Shown: positions 1,868 to 19,877 of the stretch, piece by piece | Position numbering within the stretch: position 1 is the first letter of the stretch | Layout of the letters: each line of letters begins with the position of its first letter | Virus record (IMG/VR): IMGVR_UViG_3300005602_000037 | Location: 1 to 21,117 of that record | Source: a virus | DNA: 21,117 nucleotides | Strand: one strand, 5' to 3' | Notes under the pieces: model-generated | What the model saw: the letters and a program-made list of their open reading frames with translations, nothing else | What the model was told of the DNA's origin: nothing | Database searches by the model: none | Made by a program: the position numbers and the translations under genes

Positions 1868-3880
1868 CTATCCCGGGACGGCCTGTTTGGGAACACCTGC
1901 CGAATCCATGGCCTCCTCGATCGCCTTCGTGAGGTCGGCGAGGAAGCTCGAGCCCTGGATGGCCGCCACGGTCGCCCCGGGGTCCTTTCCCCCTCCGGAG
2001 ACATTCAGGGTGAGGTTAACGGTCACGGACGCTCGGTCCCCTCCTGAGCCCCCACCAGCCGAGCTCCGGGCAGGGAGGATGCGCTCGCCGGGGGCCACGC
2101 TCGCGAACATCTCCCCCGGGGCAGGGCGCATTACGAGCCCTCCCTCGGCGTGGGCGGGCGCCGTGACCACGCCCTTCCCTCCGCTGGCGCCCGCGACCTC
2201 CCGGACGCCCGTGCCTCCTCCGATCGTCCCCTCACGCTCAGCGCGTGCGCGGCGCTGGTCCCTGAGCGCGTTGGCTTGCGCGTCGAGGTCGGCGTTGACC
2301 TTGTCGTAGCCCTCGGCGTCGACCCGCTTACCCAGCGCTGTCGCCGAGAAGCCTTGGATGCTCTGCCATGCCTTATAGGCCTCCACTGCTTTCTCGAGGG
2401 CGTTTGCCGTCACGAGGATCGCAGTCCCAAGCGCGACCCACGGGGCCGCGGCCGCCGCGACTGTGATGGTCATCGCGGCGAGGTATCCGACACCGATAGC
2501 CAGCGCGACCGAGAGGACGTCGAGCGCGACCTTGACCTCGGCCATGACCGTCGCCCAATTCTTCTTCAGCCACGTCGCGGCAAGGATGAACTGCGTGGTC
2601 ATCTTCGTGACCCACAGGATCACTTCGCGGATCGCCGTGACGAGCGGAGGGGTCGCGGAGGCCGCGGCCCCGAAGAGCACCGTCGAGAGCGCGGTCACAA
2701 CCTGCTTGAGCGTGTAGCCGCTCGTCGTCGTCGTCGAGAAGACCTCTTCGATCTTCGATAGGCCTTTGAGGAAGGTTTCGAGGGGGCCCATCGCCCCCCG
2801 CATGAGGGACGTTAGATCGTCGCGGAAGCGCTGCGCGATCGCGTCCGCGGAGATGAGCTTCGCCGCGAGGACGTCACCGTATGCCGCGCCGGCAGCCGTC
2901 GTGAGAGCCTGGATCCCCTTGTTGATCTCGACAGTGTGCTGGACGAGCATCGTCCTGGCCTTGGCGATCGAGATGTTCTCTTGCTTCGCTAGTGCCGCTG
3001 CAACTTGATCGAACTTGATGCCCGTGCCCGCGAGCTCGCCCGCGCTGAAGTTCCGGCCGGGCGCGATCCCGAAGCGGCCGACGTCCTTCCCTCTCGAGAC
3101 AAGCGCCTCGATCTTGCTCGAGGCTTCCTTGCCCGCCGCGGCCGTCGCGCTTCCGAGAAGCGTAACCGTGTCGAGGATGCCTTGCCCTGACACGCGCGTG
3201 TTGTCGAAGGAGGTCCGCACGGTGCGGTACATCTCCGAAAGCGCCTCGGTCGCGAGAGGGACCTTCCGCCGGAGTAGATCGATCTGATCCCCCATACGTT
3301 CCGAGTCTTCGCGCGAGCCCGCGATCGCTTGGCGAGCGAGCGTCATGTCACGCGCGACGTTCCCGGCCTCGAACGCCCACTTCGCCAGGCTCACCGCGCC
3401 GTAGACCGCCGCAACGCTGACCGCGGCGAGCGCTGCGGCGAGCGCGAGGGCGCCCGCGACGGCCCCGGCCTGGGCGATCTTGGCCACGTCGAGGTCCGAG
3501 GAAAACTCTTTGATCGCAAATCGGGTTTCACGTGACACCCCGAAGAGGCGAAGGAGGTGCGTGTCGAGACCCGACTCGGAGGCCTCGCGCTCCTTTCCCG
3601 CGAGTTCGCGGAGGCTCGAGCCTCGCTTGACGATCTCGAGGTTCGCGGCCGAGAGAGCCGAGCGCTGCGCGTCGAGCTGCGCCTTGAGCGCACCTTGCGC
3701 GGTCTTGACCTCGTCCGAGTTGCCTCGAAGGAGACGGAGCGAGCTCGACGCCGTCCGGATCGACTCTTGCGCCTTGTCGGCCTGAGCCTTCAGGTCCTTC
3801 AGCGAGACGGCGGCGCCGGCGACGTCGGCGCCTCCCTGGACCTTCAGGTCGACGTCAAAACTCGCCTGGTCGTCAGACAT
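1868..3880 (-). CDS. Tail tape measure protein, 670 aa
   Basis: The longest gene in the window lies directly after the frameshifted tail chaperone, the usual place for the tape measure. The protein has a coiled-coil N-terminus (about residues 22-100, with Lys/Gln/Ala heptad-like stretches), a hydrophobic segment around 130-170 (ALALAAALAAVSVAAVYGAV) and further Ala-rich hydrophobic segments around 410-520. The C-terminus carries AEGGLVMRPAPGEMFASVAP and GERILPARSS, a motif common near the end of tape measures. It sets tail length inside the tube and probably inserts in the host envelope on ejection. At 670 residues, with roughly 1.5 angstrom per residue for an extended helix, it would suit a tail near 100 nm (inference). 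The ATG at 3880 is 9 bases after the preceding stop. Confidence 0.9.
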   Translation of the reverse strand: MSDDQASFDVDLKVQGGADVAGAAVSLKDLKAQADKAQESIRTASSSLRLLRGNSDEVKTAQGALKAQLDAQRSALSAANLEIVKRGSSLRELAGKEREASESGLDTHLLRLFGVSRETRFAIKEFSSDLDVAKIAQAGAVAGALALAAALAAVSVAAVYGAVSLAKWAFEAGNVARDMTLARQAIAGSREDSERMGDQIDLLRRKVPLATEALSEMYRTVRTSFDNTRVSGQGILDTVTLLGSATAAAGKEASSKIEALVSRGKDVGRFGIAPGRNFSAGELAGTGIKFDQVAAALAKQENISIAKARTMLVQHTVEINKGIQALTTAAGAAYGDVLAAKLISADAIAQRFRDDLTSLMRGAMGPLETFLKGLSKIEEVFSTTTTSGYTLKQVVTALSTVLFGAAASATPPLVTAIREVILWVTKMTTQFILAATWLKKNWATVMAEVKVALDVLSVALAIGVGYLAAMTITVAAAAAPWVALGTAILVTANALEKAVEAYKAWQSIQGFSATALGKRVDAEGYDKVNADLDAQANALRDQRRARAEREGTIGGGTGVREVAGASGGKGVVTAPAHAEGGLVMRPAPGEMFASVAPGERILPARSSAGGGSGGDRASVTVNLTLNVSGGGKDPGATVAAIQGSSFLADLTKAIEEAMDSAGVPKQAVPG

Positions 3881-3889
3881 GGCTCAAGC

Positions 3890-4473
3890 CTATTGGCTCA
3901 CGAGCCAACGCGCGACAAGGAAGGCGCCCACGATTCCCATGTCGATCGCCTCCGGGTCCTCGGGACGGCCCCGAAAGAGCGCGAGCACCCCCTCCGCTGC
4001 GACCGCTGGCTCCGACTGCGCGCGTCGGATCAGCTCCCTTATTTTCCCGATTCCTCGCCGGCCTTGAAGATGTGTAGGTGGTTCAGCATGTCGATTCCGG
4101 CCGTGGCAACCGCCTCGCATCCGGGCATGGCGTCCGTGCCCTTGCACCACGTCCGGAAGATCTCCGGGGTTGGGTGCAGGAGGCTCGGCACGACGGTATT
4201 GATGATCGCGTCGAGGTTCGGAGCCTCGGTCGGTTTGAGACCGAGGAGGTGCTTCGTCCACGCCGCCCAGACCATGGCGGGCGACCGTTTTACCGCGAGG
4301 ACCCCTTCGCGAGTGTTTGCGATCTCAAAGTGTCGACCACGGATCATGTCGGGCGTAGAGAAGCGGTCCTCGAGCTCGAGGATCAGATCTTCGCGCTCCT
4401 GCTTCTCGGCCTCCGCGGCCTTCTCTCGCGCAGCGCGGCGCGCAAGAAGCTCCTTCCTTTTCTCGTCGTCCAT
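3890..4473 (-). CDS. Tail assembly chaperone long form (GT type), made by -1 ribosomal frameshift
   Basis: The short chaperone frame ends TCG GGA AAA TAA. Slipping back one base on G GGA AAA continues into a second open frame for 50 more codons (IRELIRRAQSEP ... FLVARWLVSQ) and stops at 3890, giving a 194-residue fusion. This matches the known G/GT arrangement of lambda-like and many other tailed phages, in which the long form bridges the tape measure and tube subunits during assembly and is absent from the virion. A 6-bp hairpin follows the slippery site. The extension has no plausible independent start of its own: the open frame before the slip point reads as an Arg/Pro-rich shadow. The coordinates span both frames; the frame changes at about 4042. 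Confidence 0.85.
4011..4029 (-). other. Hairpin downstream of the slippery site, candidate frameshift stimulator
   Basis: TCCGAC and GTCGGA form a perfect 6-bp stem around a 7-base GC-rich loop, beginning 12 bases after the slippery heptamer. The spacing is a little longer than the commonest 5-9 bases. It may act as a stimulatory structure or be part of a larger fold. Confidence 0.45.
4039..4473 (-). CDS. Tail assembly chaperone short form (G type), 144 aa
   Basis: The ATG at 4473 has a strong Shine-Dalgarno (AAAGGAG, 5 bases away). The protein begins with a highly charged helix (MDDEKRKELLARRAAREKAA), followed by a globular helical part with PAMVWAAWTKHLLGLKP. It sits between the tube and tape-measure genes and ends at a canonical slippery heptamer, which together identify it as the zero-frame product of a tail assembly chaperone pair. 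Such proteins coat the tape measure and recruit tube subunits. No sequence family is recognised beyond that; the assignment rests on position, length and frameshift signal. Confidence 0.85.
   Translation of the reverse strand: MDDEKRKELLARRAAREKAAEAEKQEREDLILELEDRFSTPDMIRGRHFEIANTREGVLAVKRSPAMVWAAWTKHLLGLKPTEAPNLDAIINTVVPSLLHPTPEIFRTWCKGTDAMPGCEAVATAGIDMLNHLHIFKAGEESGK
4042..4048 (-). promoter_or_regulatory. Programmed -1 frameshift slippery heptamer G GGA AAA
   Basis: On the minus strand the reading frame is tcG GGA AAA TAA. This fits the X XXY YYZ rule exactly, with the zero-frame stop right behind it. The lambda G/T site (G GGA AAG) differs only in its last base. The slip joins two frames that each make sense, upstream of a tape-measure gene. 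Confidence 0.85.
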
Positions 4474-4505
4474 CGTGTCTCCTTTCGAGCCTCGTTAGCC
4501 CGAGA

Positions 4506-4543
4506 GGGCGCGCGAGGTAAAGGAGGAAAACCCTCGAGCGCCC
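4506..4543 (-). other. Strong intergenic hairpin between tube and chaperone genes
   Basis: In the 88-base gap between the tube stop and the chaperone start, GGGCGCTCGAGG and CCTCGCGCGCCC pair over 12 positions with one mismatch, around a 14-base loop. No T-run follows on either strand, so it is not a classical intrinsic terminator. It could protect or partly attenuate the mRNA, lowering chaperone output relative to tube (inference). Confidence 0.5.
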
Positions 4544-4561
4544 ACTCCGATCGACGAGGGA

Positions 4562-5062
4562 TTACTGCTGCGAGCTGAAGAGGGAGAGGCCGTTGGTGGT
4601 CTCTCCGATGAACATCAACGTGAGATCCTCTTTCGTCTCGTCCTCGTTGTCGATCCCCTCGTCGATCTTGAACTCGACGACGACGCACGGCGTGAACGTG
4701 TAGATGATAACCGGCGCTTGGGTGATGTCGGGTTCTGACGCCGTGATCGTCGTGATGAACTTCGCATCTCCGTAGCTCGACCCGTTCGGTTCGCTCGCGG
4801 CGAGGTTCTCTTTGATCTGCTGGGCCGTCGTCTTCAGGAACGTGAGCACCAGCGCGCCGGGCTCGTAGCCTCCCGCGGTGAAGCCATTGGGCTTCGCGTC
4901 GCGTCGCGAGCTCTTGACGACCTTGCGCGAACGCTTCGCCCCATAGCCCGCCTTAAACCATCCGTCGAAGGGGCCGTTCCCCGCGCCGAAGGAGACGGCC
5001 ACGGACCGCCCGGAAAGGATGGTCTGGTTTGCGAGTCTCGACCTGTCAATTCCCGCTGCCAT
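4562..5062 (-). CDS. Tail tube protein, 166 aa
   Basis: The gene follows the sheath by 45 bases and has ATG 5062 with AAAGG 5 bases upstream. The protein is of normal tube length and beta-rich, with a basic segment GAKRSRKVVKSSRRDAKPNG near residues 41-60, FTAGGYEPGALVLTF at 61-75 and an acidic C-terminal stretch (KIDEGIDNEDETKEDL). Tube proteins stack as hexameric rings inside the sheath and guide DNA. I do not see a signature that names the family, so the call depends on the sheath-tube-chaperone-tape measure order, which is nearly invariant in contractile phages, and on length. Confidence 0.8.
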   Translation of the reverse strand: MAAGIDRSRLANQTILSGRSVAVSFGAGNGPFDGWFKAGYGAKRSRKVVKSSRRDAKPNGFTAGGYEPGALVLTFLKTTAQQIKENLAASEPNGSSYGDAKFITTITASEPDITQAPVIIYTFTPCVVVEFKIDEGIDNEDETKEDLTLMFIGETTNGLSLFSSQQ

Positions 5063-5107: not shown

Positions 5108-6856
5108 CTAAGCCAACGTCTGGACGGCGTATTCCGAAATTAGGAACCGTTTCACATATCCCAAGTAGGCCACGCGAACCCAGCACGTGATCGTCGCAGG
5201 CCCGTTGCCGAGGTTGATGTCGTTCCTCGAGACGGTGAACTGCGCGCCCGAAACCTGCCCGTTCAGCGCCGCGTCGAGCACGGCTTGCCCGCGCTCTTCC
5301 CATTCCGCCGCCTGCGCTTCGAGAATCAGGCCCGTCTTCGGGTTGCGCTCGTAGCCCGCGGACATCAGGATCGACATCGCGGCGTAGACCTGCCCCGCGC
5401 CAACGTTCAGAACGCGGAGCTGCTGGACGTAGAAGAGCCCGAAGCCGGCGCTCTGGAGAACGTAGGCGCTGGTGACGAACGTCCCCTCGCCAACCGTCGA
5501 CGGCCACGTCCTGAGTGTCGAAAGTCGGATGACCGTCGAGTCGAGCCCGCCCTCCCTGAACTCGTCGTGATAGTTCGGGAGCCCGTTCGGGCCCGTGATG
5601 TTGAAGTTCGTGATCGCGCCGGCGCCCTGCACGAACGCCGGGTCTTGCCCGATCGGTCCAGCCATGACCTTGCAGGCGATCCCGAGCGAGGCATGCTGGC
5701 GCTTGACGACGCCCGACACGCTCGATTTGCAGTCGCCGCCGTCGGTGCCCACGATCATGTTGTTCGAGGCGGCCGACGCGAGGAGCGTCGACATCGCCGC
5801 CTGATACGTCGCGTCGAGCTCGACGGGCTGCGCGTAGTGGAGGCGTGTGTTGACGTAGACGTGCGGGTACTGGCCGAGGAGCGCGAGGCTCTGCACCCAC
5901 GCGTCAATCTGCGAGACGAAACTCGGAGTGATGCCTCCGGTGAGGTCGTCGATGAGCACCGCTTCGTACTGGAACGCTGACGCCTTCAGCGCGGCGAGCG
6001 CGCTTATGAGGTCGCTCGACTGCATCGCCGGGCCCGAGACCACAGCCGTGATGATGTCGCCCGTGTTGATCGTCTGAGCCGTCGTAAAGTTCACCGTGAC
6101 GCCCGTCGACGCGCCGGTCACGGGAACGACGAGCGTCGTCGAGAGTGCAGTCCCGAGCGCGATGTCGGGCCCAAAGGACTGGCCGAAGTCGAGAGACGGC
6201 GAGAGGATAATCCCCGTCGTCCCGAACGTGCCTCCGTTCTTGCACACGAGCTCGACGAGGTAGGAGTCGACAGCCGCGCTCGCCGAGATGGTCGGCACGG
6301 CCGTGCCCGTCGAGGCGCCACCCGTAGAGCTGTTGAGCGTCGCGCCCGTCCACGTCGCCGTTGCCGAGCTCGCGGTGTAGCTGCCCGAGCCCGTGACCGG
6401 GATCGTGAAGTGCGTCGAGTCGACGACCGTCACGGGATACGTCCCGTTGATGGCCGTATCGCCCGTCGCTCCCGCGATCGTGACGATGTATCCGGTCGCG
6501 AAGCCGTGCGCTGCGCTCGTCGTGAGCTCCGCGGGAGGCCCGACGCTCGCCACGGCAAGGATCGTCGCCGGGGTGACCGCACCTACCGAGACCGAGCCCG
6601 AGGTCGTCGTCGTCGGCAGCACCGCGACGACTTGGTTCTCGGTGACCGTGATCGCGTAGGTCACGAGCTCGAGGAGGCGCCCCTCGACGAGGTCGGTCGT
6701 CGCGATCCCCGTGTCAGAAAAGACCGTGGCGACGTTCGGAGGGATGAGCGCGGCGCCCGAGCAACTTGCGATGATCGCGAGGACCCCGAGCTGTCCGGGA
6801 GCACCTTGCGCTTGGCTTGCCGCTAATTTGTTGACGGTCGTCGACGGAGCGGACAT
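5108..6856 (-). CDS. Contractile tail sheath protein (DUF2586-like) with an FCCH-like insert, 582 aa
   Basis: The start ATG 6856 shares its A with the HNH stop (TGATG), and GAGAGG precedes it. An upstream in-frame ATG is ignored because it lies inside the HNH gene. The N-terminus (MSAPSTTVNKLAASQAQGAP, then GQLGVLAIIASCSG) and the central part (QYEAVLIDDLTGGITPSFVSQIDAWVQSLALLGQYPHVYVNTR) fit the DUF2586 class of sheath-like proteins. The C-terminal NDINLGNGPATITCWVRVAY-LGYVKRFL region fits the sheath core. Residues about 98-171 form a separate beta module (LTTSAAHGFATGYIVTIAGA, NGTYPVTVVDSTHFTIPV) that resembles the E1 FCCH-type domain found in many phage tail proteins. The product forms the contracting outer tail cylinder. 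Confidence 0.85.
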   Translation of the reverse strand: MSAPSTTVNKLAASQAQGAPGQLGVLAIIASCSGAALIPPNVATVFSDTGIATTDLVEGRLLELVTYAITVTENQVVAVLPTTTTSGSVSVGAVTPATILAVASVGPPAELTTSAAHGFATGYIVTIAGATGDTAINGTYPVTVVDSTHFTIPVTGSGSYTASSATATWTGATLNSSTGGASTGTAVPTISASAAVDSYLVELVCKNGGTFGTTGIILSPSLDFGQSFGPDIALGTALSTTLVVPVTGASTGVTVNFTTAQTINTGDIITAVVSGPAMQSSDLISALAALKASAFQYEAVLIDDLTGGITPSFVSQIDAWVQSLALLGQYPHVYVNTRLHYAQPVELDATYQAAMSTLLASAASNNMIVGTDGGDCKSSVSGVVKRQHASLGIACKVMAGPIGQDPAFVQGAGAITNFNITGPNGLPNYHDEFREGGLDSTVIRLSTLRTWPSTVGEGTFVTSAYVLQSAGFGLFYVQQLRVLNVGAGQVYAAMSILMSAGYERNPKTGLILEAQAAEWEERGQAVLDAALNGQVSGAQFTVSRNDINLGNGPATITCWVRVAYLGYVKRFLISEYAVQTLA

Positions 6857-7470
6857 CAGTTCCTCTCGCTTTCCGCCGCACGGCGGCACTTGTTGTGCTC
6901 CCAAGCCTTGATCGCATTGCAGTTCGCGCAAAGCAGTTGGTATCGACCTTTAGTGTCGGCCAGGACCCGGACGAAGAGGCTCATTATCCCCGCTCGCTTA
7001 ATCCTCTTGCCCGTCGCGCGGCTCCGATTCCTCTCCATGGCTCCGTCGTTGTTCACGTGATCGATGTGGAGGCATCGAATATCGGTGCTCCCCCCGGGAG
7101 TGCTGCACGTGGGGCTAACGCAACGACCACCCAGCTTTGCGAAGACCAGATCTTTCGCGCGCGCGCTTCGCGAGCGACATCTCTCCGCATTCGCGGCAGG
7201 ATGCTCTCGATACCAAGCCTCCGACGCCTCACGGGTACACGCGAGGCACCAAGATTGAAGCCCGTTCCTCTTTCGCGTGTCCGTTCGGAATTCATTCCGA
7301 CCCTTGGCCTGCCTGCACTTCGTACAAGTAGCCTCGCTTGGCTCCGACCTCGAATAGGTGACGGATCCTCCTTTGCGGCCGACGATCTTCGCCTCCTCAG
7401 ATGTCCACCGATGCCCCCCATGATCATGAAGCGACCGGGGTAGCTCTGGGGCGAGGTTGATGAGCATCAT
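6856..7470 (-). CDS. Free-standing HNH endonuclease, 204 aa
   Basis: A zinc-ribbon-like N-terminal part (CTKCRQAKGRNEF near residues 49-61 and WCLAC near 74-78) is followed by an HNH core: CLHIDHVNNDG (about 132-142) and YQLLCANCNAIKAWEH (about 177-192), with CVSPTC upstream as additional metal ligands. This layout is typical of phage HNH homing endonucleases that cut DNA and spread between genomes. The gene sits between two morphogenesis genes, 16 bases after the tail terminator-like gene and overlapping the sheath start by one base. Its Shine-Dalgarno is poor, and codon use is less GC-rich than in the neighbours, suggesting a later insertion. ATGATG at 7470 is the first start after the previous stop; a slightly later start is possible. 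Confidence 0.88.
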   Translation of the reverse strand: MMLINLAPELPRSLHDHGGHRWTSEEAKIVGRKGGSVTYSRSEPSEATCTKCRQAKGRNEFRTDTRKRNGLQSWCLACTREASEAWYREHPAANAERCRSRSARAKDLVFAKLGGRCVSPTCSTPGGSTDIRCLHIDHVNNDGAMERNRSRATGKRIKRAGIMSLFVRVLADTKGRYQLLCANCNAIKAWEHNKCRRAAESERN

Positions 7471-13717: not shown

Positions 13718-13889
13718 GATCCTCCCGGATCTGCGCCCTCTCCGCGGGGTCGTCGACCTGAGAGAGAAGAGCCTCGAGCTCGGCCTTCAGCTCACCGAAC
13801 TTCTCCGCGGTGAACTGTCCCGCATCGTGGAGTGCGGTCGCGCGATGCAGCTTCGCGGTCGCGCGGTCGTCGGCTTCGTCCGCTGTCAT
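13662..13889 (-). CDS. Small acidic protein between zincin and protease, 75 aa
   Basis: ATG 13889 overlaps the zincin gene stop as ATGA. The product is an acidic, helical protein (MTADEADDRATAKLHRATAL, GQFTAEKFGELKAELEALLS, EPLSWIEPGG), probably two helices. Its length and composition suit a small head-assembly or regulatory protein, but I do not recognise a family. It overlaps the protease frame by 56 bases at the 3' end, and codon use in this frame is regular. The role is unknown; position places it in the head-morphogenesis group. Confidence 0.65.
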   Translation of the reverse strand: MTADEADDRATAKLHRATALHDAGQFTAEKFGELKAELEALLSQVDDPAERAQIREDLAEPLSWIEPGGPSEDRD

Positions 13890-14944
13890 TCCATCCCCCT
13901 ATGCTTTCGGACGCGCCGAATCAAGTCGAAGGCCTGGGGGTCGCGGGCCTTGAGCGTTTCGGGGTGATAGACATAAGCCGCGTGGCACTCGGTGAACCAC
14001 TCCTTGTAGTTTTTCCTGGAGTACCTCGAGGGGATCCACTTGCCGGGGACCGTCTCCACCCGGCCGTCCGGATCCTTGTCCGTGATCGACGACGGATCGA
14101 TATGCACGCGCTCCCGGAAGCCTTTCTTGATCTCGTTGTCGAGCTTCTTCTGGAGAGGACTCGAGGACGAAAGGTGCACGTGATGCCCGAGCTCGTGCAC
14201 CATCGTCCGCTGTTGCATCTCTTCCGGCGACGATGCGAGCGAAGAGATGCTCCACACGTGCTCGCCGGGCTCGGTCGCGCGCGCCGCCTTCTTCTTTCCG
14301 AGGAGACCCTTGGATCGCGCGAAGCGAGTCTCGAAGTCCTCCGACTTGAGGATCGATAGCCCTTCTCCTCCGCGCCAGTAGAGGCCGTTCGCCGTCTGCA
14401 CGAGGTTGCCAGAGAACGAGTCGATCTCGGCGCCAGAATGTTCGGCGAGCTCCGAGATCGGCGCATGCTTGAGAAACTTCGCGTATCCGCCCTTGACGAT
14501 AGCCTTCTCTGCATTGGCCTTCGTCTCGGGCGAGATCCCCTCGTGAGGAATCTTGAGTGTGTCGAGGCTGCCCCGAAGGATCCCGGCGTGCTCCTCGTGA
14601 ACCTTTGCTTGCTCGTGATGATGGGATCCGGCATCGAGGTGCTTTTCTCGCGCGGCGAGATGTCGTTCACGATCTTTCTTTGACCGGGCCTTCGCTGCGA
14701 GAGCTCCTCGGCGATCGGCTTCCCGGGCGTGGAACTCTTCCGCCTTTCGGTGTGCCGCGGCCGCGGCATCGTGGTGCTCCCCCTTACCTGTTCTCTTCGC
14801 CTTGCCGCTTGCCGAAGCAGCCTCGCGCGATCCGGAGCTCGCGAATCTGCCCCTCTCGTCGCGCGGCTGATCCGGATCGAACGCAAGAAACTCGAGAAAG
14901 TCCTCGAAGTCTCCGAGCTCCTCAAGCTGCTCTTCGCTCAGCAT
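13886..14944 (-). CDS. Head-associated zinc metallopeptidase-like protein (HELGHH zincin), 352 aa
   Basis: ATG 14944 overlaps the portal C-terminus by 23 bases; the longer frame upstream reads as an Arg-rich portal shadow. The order is: an acidic N-terminal helix (MLSEEQLEELGDFEDFLEFL); the linker DPDQPRDERGRFAS, frequent in phage portal and minor head proteins; a His/Lys/Glu-rich coiled coil of about 70 residues; then a domain holding MVHELGHHVHL (HExxH zinc site, about 247-257) and KEWFTECHAAYVYHPE (about 313-328), whose Glu may be the third ligand. It occupies the locus where Mu-like phages carry gpF. It may be a capsid-internal or ejected peptidase, or a maturation enzyme additional to S49. 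Active-site inference is from motif only. Confidence 0.8.
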   Translation of the reverse strand: MLSEEQLEELGDFEDFLEFLAFDPDQPRDERGRFASSGSREAASASGKAKRTGKGEHHDAAAAAHRKAEEFHAREADRRGALAAKARSKKDRERHLAAREKHLDAGSHHHEQAKVHEEHAGILRGSLDTLKIPHEGISPETKANAEKAIVKGGYAKFLKHAPISELAEHSGAEIDSFSGNLVQTANGLYWRGGEGLSILKSEDFETRFARSKGLLGKKKAARATEPGEHVWSISSLASSPEEMQQRTMVHELGHHVHLSSSSPLQKKLDNEIKKGFRERVHIDPSSITDKDPDGRVETVPGKWIPSRYSRKNYKEWFTECHAAYVYHPETLKARDPQAFDLIRRVRKHRGME

Positions 14945-16394
14945 CTCTCGCCGCGCGCCACTCCTCGTAGACTCGAGCAACGTCCGGAGACTTTGCGAGC
15001 ATCGCGAGCGGCGAGACGGACGCCTTGGCCTTCTGCGGCGTCGCGAACTCGGCCGCCTCGATTCCCGTACTGTCCTGCCCGGTCGCGGCTGCCGTCGCTT
15101 GCGCGCGGAGAGGGATCGCGAAGCGAGTGAGCAGCGCGTCGACATCGACATCCTCGGCCTTGCCGAGCTTCTCGAGGATCGTCAAGAGCTTCTCGAGTCC
15201 GTCGGCGACGGCGCCGATCGTTTCCGCTTCCGTCTTCAGCTCGACCGGCGTTGCCGTGTTCCAATCGACGACGGTGAAGCGCTCCGTGATTGCCTCCACG
15301 CCGTATTGGAGAGCGATGTACATCGGGAGCCCTTGCGTGTTGATCGTGAATGCGAGCGCGTCTCCGTCGCTCTTGATGAGGTCCTCTCGGATCGTCCGAT
15401 GGATGTCCGCGTTCGCGAAGCCGGCCCCCCCCGTCGTCGTGACGACCTGGCCCGAAATCGCAACCATTGCCTCGTGATCCGAGGTGTCGATCTCTTTCTG
15501 GAAGACCTGGATCCCGATCCCGTTGCTCTCGAGGAGAGAGACCTTCCATCCTACGGGAAGGACGAAGACCTGATTCATGCCCCAACGGAGAAGCTTTTTG
15601 AACATTCCCTCTCGTTCGAGTTCGTTTGCCCCGAGGGGAGCTTCCATCAGGCGGGCGGGGTTAGCGAGCTTCGCCGAGTAGTTCGACCGACACGACATCG
15701 CGTGCTCTTTGTTGATGTACGCCCGCCCGACCGCGGGCCAGATCCCTCCGTTCCACGGAGCGTTGCGACCCGCGCCGCTTCCGAAGTGGAGGATCCAGCG
15801 GCCGTCGCCGGGCGTCACGGCGAGGAGCCCTGCCGAGCTCGTGAAGTACCACCGGTTCTCCGTCCACCGATATTGGAGGTTCTCCGGATCGAGCCGGACC
15901 ATGACGGGATAGGGGCGCCCCTGCACAGGCACGAGCTCGGCGACGCCCACGCCGAGCGACACGCCATCGGCGTCGAGGAGACCGAGCTCGCTCGGAGGAA
16001 ACATCTCGTCAAACACCGAGCGCGATCCGTTGTTCGCCCTCAGCGCCGAGGCGATTTCAGGGTCGCCGTAGAACCGTTTAGGCAGGCGGACGAGCCCCGC
16101 GCAGCGCGTCCCAAGCAAGCCGGCGATGACGCCGTCGCGCTTGAATGCGCGATGAAGCTGCGCCGCCATGAGGATGTCACCGGAGTCCGCGTTCCGCTGC
16201 GCGATCTCGAGGTCGGCGAGGTACCAGCGGAGCCGCGTACGGGGAAGCGGCTGGATCTGCCCGCCCATCGCCTCGCGGATCTGATCGATCGTCGCATCCT
16301 CGAGAAGAAGCCCGCTCTGGGGCGTGTTCTTCTCGAACGCGCTTACCCCGAGGAGCGCTCGGGTAATTTCTCGGACGGTTGCAACGACGCCCAC
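14922..16394 (-). CDS. Portal protein, Mu gp29 (DUF935)-like, 490 aa
   Basis: GTG 16394 lies 15 bases after the terminase stop. The sequence matches DUF935-type portals: ADLEIAQRNADSGDILMAAQ with HRAFKRDGVIAGLLGTRCAG (about 55-94), LGVGVAELVPVQGRPYPVMV then RLDPENLQYRW (about 144-176), WILHFGSGAG, WNGGIWPAVGRAYINKEHAM and a C-terminal helical region from SISGQVVTTTGGAG onward (AISGQVVTTTGGAG in the protein). The portal forms the dodecameric ring at one capsid vertex through which DNA enters and leaves. Its location after the large terminase is conserved. The length is in the normal range. Confidence 0.9.
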   Translation of the reverse strand: MGVVATVREITRALLGVSAFEKNTPQSGLLLEDATIDQIREAMGGQIQPLPRTRLRWYLADLEIAQRNADSGDILMAAQLHRAFKRDGVIAGLLGTRCAGLVRLPKRFYGDPEIASALRANNGSRSVFDEMFPPSELGLLDADGVSLGVGVAELVPVQGRPYPVMVRLDPENLQYRWTENRWYFTSSAGLLAVTPGDGRWILHFGSGAGRNAPWNGGIWPAVGRAYINKEHAMSCRSNYSAKLANPARLMEAPLGANELEREGMFKKLLRWGMNQVFVLPVGWKVSLLESNGIGIQVFQKEIDTSDHEAMVAISGQVVTTTGGAGFANADIHRTIREDLIKSDGDALAFTINTQGLPMYIALQYGVEAITERFTVVDWNTATPVELKTEAETIGAVADGLEKLLTILEKLGKAEDVDVDALLTRFAIPLRAQATAAATGQDSTGIEAAEFATPQKAKASVSPLAMLAKSPDVARVYEEWRAARDAERRAA

Positions 16395-16409: not shown

Positions 16410-18134
16410 TCAACGACCACGGAGGATCGAGTCGCCCCAGAAGTCGTCGCCCCGCGGATCTTCGTTCCACTGGTACCCTCCCTCTTTTTGCGCTGCCGGC
16501 TTTTTGGCCAGAGGAGAATCGATCTCGGGCACGGATAGGCCGTCTACGTGTGACCAGCACGACAGAGCGAGAGCGTCGAGCTCGTCCGGCGAACAACTGA
16601 GGATGTCTCGGAGGTCATCCTTCCGGATAAGGACCTGCTTCCCATTCTCCGGCTCGAGCCAGCGGAGCGCGTGGAGCTGCTGACGGAGCCGGAGGCTACG
16701 GGGCCAGCACCCGCCGCCCTTCACCCAGTCTTCGAGCCGGCCGAAGAGGAGGTCGCGGGTCAGCTTGTATTGCTTCTCGACCTTCGTGCCGTACTTGATC
16801 GGGATGCCGCCGTGAAATTCCGTGACGAGCATCGTGCCGGGGTTGTTCCGAGCGAAGCCGACGAACTTGTCTCCAATGCGCGCCCCGTCTTTGCCGTCGC
16901 TGTCGACGGTCACGCGAGGGCGGTTGATGTCTAGGTCACTCGACCTCCGGTAACGTCCGACGAAAACGAGGACCTCGTCGAGGAGGCGATCGTCGGTACA
17001 GGGTCCGTCCATCTCGTCGGACGTCCAGATCGGGCAGAGGAGCCGAGTCCCCCGACGGACGGCGATCGCGAACTTGTCCCCCGTCTTCGCCGCCCCGGCG
17101 ATGTCCACTCCGATCGAGAGTCGGCCCTCAGGCGCGGCCTGGTCCTGGATCGTATCGTAGTGCGCCTCTCGCTTCAGGAGCGTCTCGAGAGTGAAGAGCT
17201 GCCCCCTTTCCGCGACGGGCCAAAGCCCGAGGACGTCCGACATGTAGAGCCGAGAATGCTCCCCCCAGAGTATTTTTCGCTCCTCCACCCATTCTCGAGA
17301 GGCCAGTCCGGGGATGTTCGCGCCTTCGGTGATGTTCGGGTTGTCCGCGCTCGAGCACGTCAGAAGGGAAGACTCTCCCGTATCCGTTCGGTAGCTCGGA
17401 GCGTCTTCGTGGAAGGCCTTGTGGGCCCACCCCGTCGTGCGCGTAGGATTCACGGACACCACGAACTTAGCCGTCGCGCTCGCGATGTTCCCCTCGATGA
17501 CTCGATGGTGGTCGTCCGGCACCTCGCAACCCTCATCGACCAAGACGAGCATGTTACCCCCCGATATTCCTCGGAGCCCTCCGCCCCCGGGATTGGCGAC
17601 CATCCCGAAGATCGCGCGAGTGTCCTCCGCTCGGAGGCCGGTCTTGCAGCCGACTCCGAGACTGCCGCCGAGAAGCTTCGAGTGAGGGCACGGCGTTGGC
17701 CCTCCGGGGTTGTCTCTCTTGCACTTCACGCATCGCCCATGCCCGAGCATGAGCTGCCGAATCTCTAGATAGATGATCTCGTCAATCTGTTCGAGCTTCG
17801 GGGCAATGAGGATCACCCGCGCCTTCTCGTGAGTCGCCCAGTACCAGATTGCAACACAGGCTAGAGCCAAGGACTTGCCGACCTTCCGCCCCCCCGCCAC
17901 CCCCGTCAGTCTCGAGGACGCGACGGTGAGTACAACTGAAATCTGGAAGGCCCACAGCGAGACTCCGAGGACGTCTCTCATGAACTCGAGAGGGTGAAGG
18001 CGGTAGTACTCCGACGGCCACGCCGTAGACGATTCCTCGTCGAGCCCGGCGTCGAAGACCTTGCGCCATTCGGTCTCGGGGCGAGCCCCACGCGCAGCCT
18101 GAGGAAGCGCACGCCGGACTCGAGACGGCCTCAC
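16410..18134 (-). CDS. terL: Terminase large subunit, 574 aa
   Basis: GTG 18134 overlaps the preceding stop as GTGA. The N-terminal ATPase has Walker A GGRKVGKS (81-88), Walker B MLVLVDEG (Asp200, Glu201) and a coupling motif FVVSVNPTRTTGWA. The C-terminal RNase H-like nuclease has SIGVDIAGAAKTGD (Asp344), VTVDSDGKDG (about 408-417) and SPDELDALALS near 525. Between the two Walker motifs, residues about 135-163 hold Cys135, Cys138, Cys149, His151 and Cys163, a possible zinc knuckle not standard for TerL. The enzyme cuts concatemeric DNA and drives it into the prohead through the portal encoded next door. Confidence 0.93.
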   Translation of the reverse strand: MRPSRVRRALPQAARGARPETEWRKVFDAGLDEESSTAWPSEYYRLHPLEFMRDVLGVSLWAFQISVVLTVASSRLTGVAGGRKVGKSLALACVAIWYWATHEKARVILIAPKLEQIDEIIYLEIRQLMLGHGRCVKCKRDNPGGPTPCPHSKLLGGSLGVGCKTGLRAEDTRAIFGMVANPGGGGLRGISGGNMLVLVDEGCEVPDDHHRVIEGNIASATAKFVVSVNPTRTTGWAHKAFHEDAPSYRTDTGESSLLTCSSADNPNITEGANIPGLASREWVEERKILWGEHSRLYMSDVLGLWPVAERGQLFTLETLLKREAHYDTIQDQAAPEGRLSIGVDIAGAAKTGDKFAIAVRRGTRLLCPIWTSDEMDGPCTDDRLLDEVLVFVGRYRRSSDLDINRPRVTVDSDGKDGARIGDKFVGFARNNPGTMLVTEFHGGIPIKYGTKVEKQYKLTRDLLFGRLEDWVKGGGCWPRSLRLRQQLHALRWLEPENGKQVLIRKDDLRDILSCSPDELDALALSCWSHVDGLSVPEIDSPLAKKPAAQKEGGYQWNEDPRGDDFWGDSILRGR

Positions 18135-18640
18135 GTTGCTTCCTCAAGCGCACGGAGCGCCGCATGGGCTGCTGCGAAGGCTTCCTTGTGGGGTCGAATG
18201 GCGTCGACGACGACTTGTAGCCCCCGGCGAAAGTGTGGCGAAGCCATTACGACCCGGGCCGTCAGTTCGCCCTCGCCCCTCACGCGGGCGAGATGCCGGA
18301 GCGCAGCGCCGAGTGCTACCGCTATCGGTACCCGATCCCTCGCCGACATCTCTGGATCAGACTCAACATCGCGACGATCCTGTTTGAGGTTCGAGACGAG
18401 TTCCTCGAACTCTTCCCTCGTCGACCGGACACCGACCGAGGCAACCTTCGTCGCTCGAACCTGGCGCGCCGCGAAGCCTCCCGATCGGAGCTTGGCGAGG
18501 AGCCCTCGCGCGGCCTCCCCGCTTGAGCAGTCGACGACGACCCGGAAAACTTCAGCTGCCGGAGCTGCGACCTGCGCTGGCGCTGGCCGCCGAGCGTCCG
18601 CCGCCTTTGCCCTTTTTGCCGCCTTTGCCGCCACGTCCAC
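18131..18640 (-). CDS. Possible small terminase or packaging accessory protein, 169 aa
   Basis: The frame ends in a GTGA overlap with terL, the usual place for a small terminase. GTG 18640 gives 169 residues; a later GTG is possible because the first 25 residues are low-complexity Ala/Lys. The remainder has a short beta-alpha-beta unit (VFRVVVDCSSGEAARGLLAK, LRSGGFAARQVRATKVASVG), then a helical part (STREEFEELVSNLKQDRRDV, PIAVALGAALRHLARVRGEG, HFRRGLQVVVDAIRPHKEAF). Small terminases are mainly helical DNA binders. No HTH is evident, so I name it only on synteny. It overlaps the Lys/Gly-rich mini-ORF in another frame. Confidence 0.6.
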   Translation of the reverse strand: MDVAAKAAKRAKAADARRPAPAQVAAPAAEVFRVVVDCSSGEAARGLLAKLRSGGFAARQVRATKVASVGVRSTREEFEELVSNLKQDRRDVESDPEMSARDRVPIAVALGAALRHLARVRGEGELTARVVMASPHFRRGLQVVVDAIRPHKEAFAAAHAALRALEEAT

Positions 18641-18659
18641 CCTTGCTTTTCTTGGCCAT
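18552..18659 (-). CDS. Nested Lys/Gly-rich 35-residue ORF
   Basis: ATG 18659 comes 10 bases after the stop of the 117-residue gene and encodes 35 residues: MAKKSKGGRGGKGGKKGKGG followed by a Ser/Ala/Gly tail ending RSSGS. It overlaps the beginning of the possible small terminase by 89 bases in a different frame. The GC-rich repeat composition of this stretch could produce such an ORF by chance, and no clear Shine-Dalgarno is present. In its favour, it has the only ATG in the gap and an extreme basic composition fitting a nucleic-acid-binding peptide. A frameshift joining it to the next gene is also conceivable. Confidence 0.4.
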   Translation of the reverse strand: MAKKSKGGRGGKGGKKGKGGGRSAASASAGRSSGS

Positions 18660-18669
18660 TACCCGAAGG

Positions 18670-19023
18670 CTAACCCAGTTTCTTGCTCTTTGGGAAGCTT
18701 GCCCGAGGTCCGATGTCGATCCCGAGGATCGCGGCCGCATGGACCCCGTCCACGTGCTTGTTGCCGAGAGCGGCGAGCCCTTGCGCCTCCAGGAAGCAAT
18801 CCTTCTGCTGTCGCGTCTCGAAACAGAAACACACCCAGTACTCGGAGTCGGTCACGAGCTTGAAGCGAGCCTTCTCGTTTTTTGCTCGCTCGCGGAAGGC
18901 TTTGCTCGTCGCGGAGACGGCCTCGGTGACGGCAGTTACGGGCGAGGCGTCGAGGTCGAGACCTCCGAAGTCGAGCGACCCAAGGTCCTCCGTGACAGCT
19001 CGAGGTGCGCGAGGGGGAGCCAT
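18670..19023 (-). CDS. Conserved-looking phage protein downstream of PAPS-reductase-like gene, 117 aa
   Basis: ATG 19023 has AAAGGA about 8 bases upstream and overlaps the preceding gene by 88 bases in another frame. The N-terminal 35 residues are acidic and low-complexity (LGSLDFGGLDLDASPVTAVT). The core is RFKLVTDSEYWVCFCFETRQ, QKDCFLEAQGLAALGNKHVD and GVHAAAILGIDIGP. I recognise this pattern (a beta hairpin, then QKxxFL and K(Y/H)xDG) from short phage proteins of unknown function that often lie close to ParB-like or PAPS-reductase-like genes. The core looks like a small alpha/beta fold. No catalytic residues are obvious. It probably works with the upstream ATPase or in packaging (inference). 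Confidence 0.75.
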   Translation of the reverse strand: MAPPRAPRAVTEDLGSLDFGGLDLDASPVTAVTEAVSATSKAFRERAKNEKARFKLVTDSEYWVCFCFETRQQKDCFLEAQGLAALGNKHVDGVHAAAILGIDIGPRASFPKSKKLG

Positions 19024-19877
19024 TCGAGAATCCTTTCGTAGTCGCGAGGAAATCGTTTCTTGATTGGGCCTAAAAACCGAGCGTCGACTCCGTCGAAACT
19101 CCGGCCGAACAAGTCGTAATCAACAGGAAGCCCACACCCCGCGGCCGAGATCGCCTTGCGTACATCTGTAATCCGCCAGTCGTAGACCGGGAGAAAACTA
19201 CGGCGCTTTGCGTTCAGCGACCCGTTCTGGCGGATGTTCGCGAGCCGGATCGGAGAGTCTACCGCTCGAGTCCAGACGGCCACGTACGTCTCGCGAGAGA
19301 CCTTGGCGACCGCGCGCACGTGGTCCTCGACCTGTTCGTACTTCAGGTTCGGCCACCGCTGTTGCTCAATCACCTCCGCGCGCTCCGGTGACTGAAATGT
19401 CAGACTTCGCATCAGGCGAGGAAAGCTCGGGTGGGGGAGTCGTAGGATCGTCTCTCCGAAAAACTTTTCGTACTTCCGGATCCCGTCCTCGACAAACTCG
19501 AGCTCGGGGACAAGCCACAGGTAAAAAGGGACGATTCGTCGGAAGCCCGCTTCGCGTAGACGCAGCCAGGCAGCGAGTGAATCCTTGCCACACGAAAACG
19601 AGAGCAACACCGTGTCCGAGCGAGAGAGCACAGCACGGCAGAGGGCTACCGAGTCGGGGTAGTGCCGGGCGAGCGGCCCCGCCGCAGCCGAGGGATCCCA
19701 CGCCTCGGGAGCGATCCCGAAGAGATCGGCGAACCTCCCCCGAGTGAGACCTCTCGGCTTTCCTCCGTGGCCGAGGATGTGCCGGAGCGTGCCCTCGGAC
19801 ACCCCGACGCGCCGTGCCACCTCTCGACCTCCTAGCTTCGCGACGATCGAGCGCAGCGCTTCGGCTCCGAGGGACAT
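18936..19877 (-). CDS. HTH domain fused to PAPS-reductase-like PP-loop ATPase, 313 aa
   Basis: ATG 19877 has AGGA about 8 bases upstream. Residues about 8-55 form a helix-turn-helix (LGGREVARRVGVSEGTLRHI, then LTRGRFADLFGI). Residues about 88-290 form a PP-loop domain: LLSFSCGKDSLAAWLRLREA (95-100 is SCGKDS, a variant of SGGKDS), VAVWTRAVDSPIRLANIRQN (about 199-218) and FLPVYDWRITDVRKAISAAG with PVDYDLFGRSFDG. The family activates a substrate by adenylation and includes CysH and DndC. The C-terminal Cys motif of true assimilatory CysH reductases is absent, so sulfate assimilation is unlikely. DNA or nucleotide modification coupled to DNA recognition is one inference; a regulatory role is another. 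Confidence 0.88.
   Translation of the reverse strand: MSLGAEALRSIVAKLGGREVARRVGVSEGTLRHILGHGGKPRGLTRGRFADLFGIAPEAWDPSAAAGPLARHYPDSVALCRAVLSRSDTVLLSFSCGKDSLAAWLRLREAGFRRIVPFYLWLVPELEFVEDGIRKYEKFFGETILRLPHPSFPRLMRSLTFQSPERAEVIEQQRWPNLKYEQVEDHVRAVAKVSRETYVAVWTRAVDSPIRLANIRQNGSLNAKRRSFLPVYDWRITDVRKAISAAGCGLPVDYDLFGRSFDGVDARFLGPIKKRFPRDYERILEWLPLAHLELSRRTLGRSTSEVSTSTPRP

Follow-up and report, generated by a model that had tools for sequence, protein, structure and literature searches.

A phage PP-loop protein paired with a free-standing ParB-type C-terminal domain next to the terminase genes

Sequence comparisons establish that a PP-loop gene and the small gene overlapping its 3' end form one functional unit, that the small partner protein is a ParB-type C-terminal domain standing on its own, and that this module adjoins terminase genes in phages whose hosts span many bacterial phyla. 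The window, that is, the whole stretch of DNA analysed here, is a 21,117-base IMG/VR virus fragment with a G+C content of 64.7%, and its minus strand carries most of the phage genes. The kinship of the partner to ParB is a point absent from the preliminary description of this DNA. Together with the partner pairing, it constitutes our main finding, ranking above the helix-turn-helix (HTH) fusion that had drawn attention to the locus.

The open reading frame (ORF) on which that description was based exists: positions 18936 to 19877 (minus strand) encode a 313-aa protein with an ATG start and an AGGA sequence 8 nt 5' of the ATG. Its AlphaFold2 model reached a mean pLDDT of 90 with 96 aligned sequences, sequences from annotated phage records having been left out of the alignments used for the structure models. 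The PP-loop (ATP-pyrophosphatase) domain spans residues 76 to 300 (18978 to 19652), is modeled with a pLDDT of about 98, and matches phrog_2302 (E 2.2e-18) and phrog_424 (E 1e-9); its FSCGKDS motif occupies residues 94 to 100 (19578 to 19598). The gene for the 117-aa partner (18670 to 19023, minus strand) begins within the PP-loop gene with an overlap of 88 nt. Codon 1 is its sole usable start, the next one lying at codon 57, and AAGGA is found 7 nt 5' of the start.

Downstream on the same strand follow a 169-aa ORF with a GTG start (18131 to 18640), which sits in the usual slot of the small terminase subunit and gave no match in the family search, the terminase large subunit (TerL; 16410 to 18134, phrog_2 E 1.7e-23) and a Mu-type portal protein (14922 to 16394, PF06074 E 5.6e-36). 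The gene order is PP-loop, partner, 169-aa ORF and TerL, and the packaging neighborhood noted earlier is borne out by the terminase-like and portal ORFs. A TerL search of viral contigs returned no close relatives of the window phage. Between the partner and the 169-aa ORF lies a 35-aa Lys/Gly-rich ORF (MAKKSKGGRGGKGGKKGKGGG...; 18552 to 18660, minus strand). Among the tail genes, a 204-aa ORF (6856 to 7470, minus strand) with paired CxxC motifs and a HIDHVNNDG...CANCN segment looks, judging by its sequence alone, like an inserted HNH/zinc endonuclease. A head-region protein between the portal and the head protease (13886 to 15151, minus strand) carries a HELGHH zinc-protease-like motif, and its weak PF07737 match (E 0.09, far under the cut-off) probably reflects just a metalloprotease motif.

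The first scans covered 80 viral and 57 genome loci, and later scans added 79 new partner-based loci and 80 further PP-loop loci; all scanned loci together gave 184 distinct PP-loop proteins, including that of the window. In 96 aligned sequences, F94, S95, G97, K98, D99, A102, P277, D279 and P288 are invariant, while R211, G219, Y254 and R296 are 99% conserved. The SCGKDS, RAVDSPIR and VYDWRITDV motifs, which the preliminary description had pointed out, correspond to motifs found family-wide, FSxGKDS, (G)VRAxDSxxR and P(V/I)xDW. It had also reported that the catalytic Cys motif of CysH is missing, and this holds for the relatives as well, since ECG occurs in 1/96 aligned sequences and no Cys column exceeds 31%.

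The SGGxDS-like motif and the match to a Rossmann-like fold place the 313-aa protein in the PP-loop ATP-pyrophosphatase superfamily. The closest PDB folds found by Foldseek were the GMP synthetase ATPPase, TtuA, the FAD synthase PAPS domain and LarE, and the tRNA thiolases TtuA and NcsA are both among the best matches; these matches are of a kind that the PP-loop fold gives in general (TM about 0.35 to 0.4), and identity to the GMP synthetase, TtuA and FAD synthase folds is 12 to 20%. PptA (PDB 21fy) gave a weak PP-loop match (E 0.09), and a literature search under that name returned no paper. A CysH PAPS/APS reductase is rejected on cysteines, as both the ECGLH catalytic Cys and the Fe-S cysteines are missing. 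DndC requires three Fe-S cysteines and a Cys dyad, and adenylation of the target may be the task of its ATP-pyrophosphatase (PMC10853773). Those cysteines are missing in the PP-loop family; on this ground phosphorothioation of the DndC kind is rejected, and the phosphorothioate idea raised earlier for this locus is disfavored. Because no cysteine is conserved, phosphorothioation is unlikely and sulfate assimilation by the PP-loop protein very unlikely. The lack of a conserved Cys, taken with the closest folds, argues for adenylation chemistry over PAPS reduction or DndC-type sulfur transfer.

The partner represents, as judged from these searches, an unnamed protein family. The 117-aa protein matched nothing in Pfam, PHROG or NCBIfam; a Pfam scan over 85 partners gave stray single matches only; and against the PDB, Foldseek found nothing under E 7 and the sequence search nothing convincing. 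No description of the free-standing partner was found in a literature search that lacks most subscription journals. In its structure model (pLDDT 87, pTM 0.55), the partner consists of helices and a TDSEYW segment in extended form. The core recovered by the iterated profile reads TDSEYWxxxCFxTREQKxxFLxxxGLxxxGDKYxDG, and in the window it appears as TDSEYW...GNKHVDG...LG (18721 to 18852, minus strand). The core is duplicated within a single ORF in 18/174 distinct partner ORFs (L006, L008, L041, L055 and others).

The pairing of the two genes was seen from both sides. The iterated profile found the partner core at 138/146 loci. At 91/106 non-redundant loci it lies immediately downstream, 21 to 518 nt 3' of the PP-loop stop; the partner is elsewhere within about 2.4 kb in 10 and undetected in 5, although in one of these five, L077, an ORF resembling the partner can be made out by eye. 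When the partner was the only query, a PP-loop gene was found just upstream at 76/79 loci, that is, at all 76 informative ones, the other 3 having the partner within 235 nt of the contig end; the PP-loop-based and partner-based searches share many contigs and are not fully independent. Among annotated phages, the PP-loop gene is present in 8/8 records in which the partner was detected at E<=0.01. This co-occurrence in the forward and reverse directions upholds the close coupling previously read as a two-gene system and extends it across phages of many hosts. The genes upstream of the module showed no recurrent family, with single matches to a C5 methylase, an amidoligase, a Tad2-like domain and others. 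One genome of Acidipropionibacterium timonense (L125, L126) carries the module twice, at a distance of about 40 kb, perhaps in two prophages.

The kinship of the partner to ParB emerged from divergent relatives, in which the gene beside the PP-loop gene encodes a larger, ParB-type protein that ends in the partner core. Among these larger proteins, the ParB_N domain passes the Pfam cut-off in L138 (E 1.7e-8) and falls short of it in L009 (E 1.8e-4); in L136, L141 and L142 only motifs are visible, by eye, and the partner-position proteins of Riemerella phage RAP44 and Bacteroides phage BS-TP2 were annotated as ParB-like by their depositors. A hidden Markov model (HMM) trained solely on free-standing partners matched the ParB-type C-termini of L138 (6e-14), L142 (3e-9) and L136 (6e-8), and more weakly those of L141 (4e-5) and LR1 (L009; 0.014); across 2,200 shuffled controls the top score was 9.4 bits. 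On a small test set, the same HMM matched BS-TP2 (2.5e-7) and RAP44 (1.5e-6), and a Bacillus phage ParB from a PAPS reductase (PAPSr)-ParB pair scored 0.3 bits, which is not significant. The hhalign comparison of partner with ParB C-terminus gave 97.8% (E 7e-13) and 98.5% (E 3e-15), with the control at 0.2%. A Pfam scan found no ParB_N in the window partner. Because this defining feature is missing, we file the window pair, on sequence grounds, not as a member of the phage PAPS reductase-ParB (IbrA/IbrB-like) pairs but as a variant of them that lacks ParB_N.

The association with packaging genes extends beyond the window. The order is NinG, PAPSr, ParB, TerS and TerL in RAP44 and ASCH, PAPSr, ParB, DUF5681 and TerL in BS-TP2. 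When the longest ORF 3' of each module was compared with protein families, TerL was the commonest match and several distinct TerL families were represented, so the terminase slot does not go back to a single phage lineage. In the maximum-likelihood tree, 7/9 ParB-linked PP-loops are separated from the rest by a branch with 100/99 support, and the other two (L136 and L138, grouped with L087) fall within the free-standing side. Their position there implies more than one loss or regain of ParB_N, the direction of change not being proven by this midpoint-rooted tree.

The N-terminal HTH of the window enzyme, proposed earlier from the letters alone, is modeled by AlphaFold2 as a folded four-helix unit. 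Residues 1 to 60 (19698 to 19877, minus strand) contain helices at 4 to 15, 17 to 24, 28 to 37 and 46 to 53, and residues 4 to 53 are predicted to adopt an HTH fold of the HTH_31 / Cro-C1 type. The pLDDT of this region is 66 to 87 (ten-residue block means) with zero alignment rows there, and the linker at 62 to 70 before the PP-loop domain falls below 50. The sequence matches are weak (phrog_7061 E 0.016; PF13560, HTH_31, E 0.023 and 15.5 bits against the Pfam cut-off of 27). About 20% of shuffles would leave the 76-codon extension open by chance, so its openness is not used as evidence for the fusion. The ORF has no in-frame ATG, GTG or TTG between codons 26 and 83, and the relatives usually start 20 to 45 aa ahead of GKD; together with the AGGA sequence, this makes the fused start near-forced, and it is very probably correct.

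An N-terminal HTH is missing from every other distinct PP-loop relative (0/183), and a sample of 284 Myxococcota genomes yielded only the already-known match. The preliminary description had itself named a domain order that varies among homologues as grounds for refutation, and for the HTH this is the outcome: a conserved HTH-PP-loop order is rejected, with the HTH present only in the window among 184 distinct relatives. The fusion, seen on one metagenomic contig, thus appears as a single acquisition by the window phage among the sampled relatives and is not family-defining. In L087, an ASCH domain is fused N-terminally to the PP-loop protein (3485 to 4711; PF04266 E 5e-6) in place of the HTH, and the L087 partner (2131 to 3516) has an HTH-like segment, judged by eye, N-terminal to its partner domain. 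The sporadic fusions (HTH, ASCH) are all of nucleic-acid-binding kinds, with one case each. ASCH domains can bind RNA or modified bases. An annotated ASCH gene lies just 5' of the PAPSr-ParB pair of BS-TP2 (L306, 1724 to 2113), and a gene that is ASCH-like by eye is directly 5' of the pair in L311 (1 to 525); both parallel the ASCH fusion in L087.

Our overall explanation, to which we give an even chance, is a paired PP-loop enzyme and partner adenylating a nucleic-acid target, with the HTH added here. The PP-loop enzyme would split ATP into AMP and PPi and adenylate an oxygen (carbonyl, carboxylate or phosphate), and the adenylated target would then be attacked by a nucleophile that is not a sulfur held on the enzyme. 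The partner would act as an obligate adaptor that positions the target, a role that we infer, because the partner has no fold match. The target would be a nucleic acid, with phage DNA the likeliest, and its modification would take place late, ahead of or during packaging. The HTH would tether the window enzyme to DNA, and in sister systems this role might be taken by ParB_N, ASCH or the HTH-like segment. A nucleic-acid link of the module is visible in the window HTH and in the fused domains of L087. We tentatively favor modification of phage DNA shortly before packaging over transcriptional activation, while placing it somewhat short of an even chance. With similar caution we put forward, as possible, a minimal two-protein system of tailed phages in which a Cys-free PP-loop enzyme and a ParB-C-derived adaptor would perform a novel non-sulfur modification of phage DNA before packaging, here with its own DNA-recognition domain. 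We know of no modified DNA from any carrier among those examined.

A serious though less likely rival is that the pair is instead a transcriptional co-activator of phage late or prophage genes, like E. coli IbrA/IbrB, with the HTH binding a promoter and the PP-loop domain sensing or adenylylating a regulator. IbrA/B have been termed co-activators of prophage gene expression (PMC4490671), and Sandt 2002, as cited in PMC10434257, reported that E. coli IbrAB switches on the eib genes of prophages; this is the only published phenotype known for a pair broadly of this sort, and it fits regulation equally well. The module also stands directly ahead of the late genes, and the modeled HTH on the window enzyme would suit promoter binding. 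Against co-activation, the enzyme is without the HTH in the 183 other relatives, the free-standing partner has no recognized DNA-binding domain, and the strictly conserved PP-loop motif argues for catalysis.

Modification of RNA such as tRNA or of a free nucleotide that is subsequently incorporated into DNA, or counter-defense by modifying a host signal nucleotide, seems unlikely. The tRNA thiolases and GMP synthetase among the best folds and ASCH as a fusion or neighbor would fit such a role, but the enzyme has no Fe-S or Cys relay of the TtuA/NcsA type, and the terminase adjacency and ParB kinship point to DNA. Phage PAPS reductases have repeatedly been reported as sulfur-metabolism genes (PMC7785012, PMC10259446, PMC10434257, PMC6145125), and papers deal with each such gene by itself, in many cases as a sulfur gene (PMC7785012, PMC10259446, PMC6145125). 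A true PAPS reductase, that is, a CysH serving as an auxiliary metabolic gene that boosts host sulfate assimilation, a description frequently given to phage genes of this type (PMC7785012, PMC10259446, PMC10434257), would agree with the PHROG category, the database names and the PF01507 scores of relatives, which lie just under the cut-off. We consider it highly improbable here: the absent cysteines, the near-obligate partner homologous to ParB C-termini, and ATPPases rather than CysH as the closest folds all speak against it.

Recognizing the partner as a ParB C-terminal domain ties the window pair to the known PAPS reductase-ParB pairs and unites, as one system, phage gene pairs that had formed two unexplained groups. 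A widespread PP-loop subfamily without the reductase cysteines also calls for caution against counting such genes as sulfate-assimilation genes. The module is a small, expressible two-protein unit for a substrate search, and the added DNA-binding head on the window enzyme hints that the pair acts on DNA.

The window domain matches PHROG 2302 and PHROG 424, "phosphoadenosine phosphosulfate reductase", but the CysH chemistry implied by that name is unsupported, and these entries do not mention the partner. Compared with the GMP synthetase, TtuA and FAD synthase folds, the window enzyme lacks a glutaminase domain and Zn/Fe-S fingers. It shares the PP-loop ATP-pyrophosphatase superfamily with DndC and BrxP, but has neither the cysteine dyad nor the Fe-S cysteines, and no DndA/D/E-like neighbors were recognized. 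The putative likeness to E. coli IbrA/IbrB is drawn via the phage PAPSr-ParB pairs. From these phage pairs, the window pair differs in that its partner has no ParB_N, its enzyme carries an HTH, and its subfamily lies across the 100/99-supported branch from most ParB-linked PP-loops. Like the pairs of RAP44 and BS-TP2, it consists of a PP-loop gene and an overlapping partner gene followed by the small terminase gene, here a putative one, and TerL, and its partner has the C-terminal domain of their ParB proteins.
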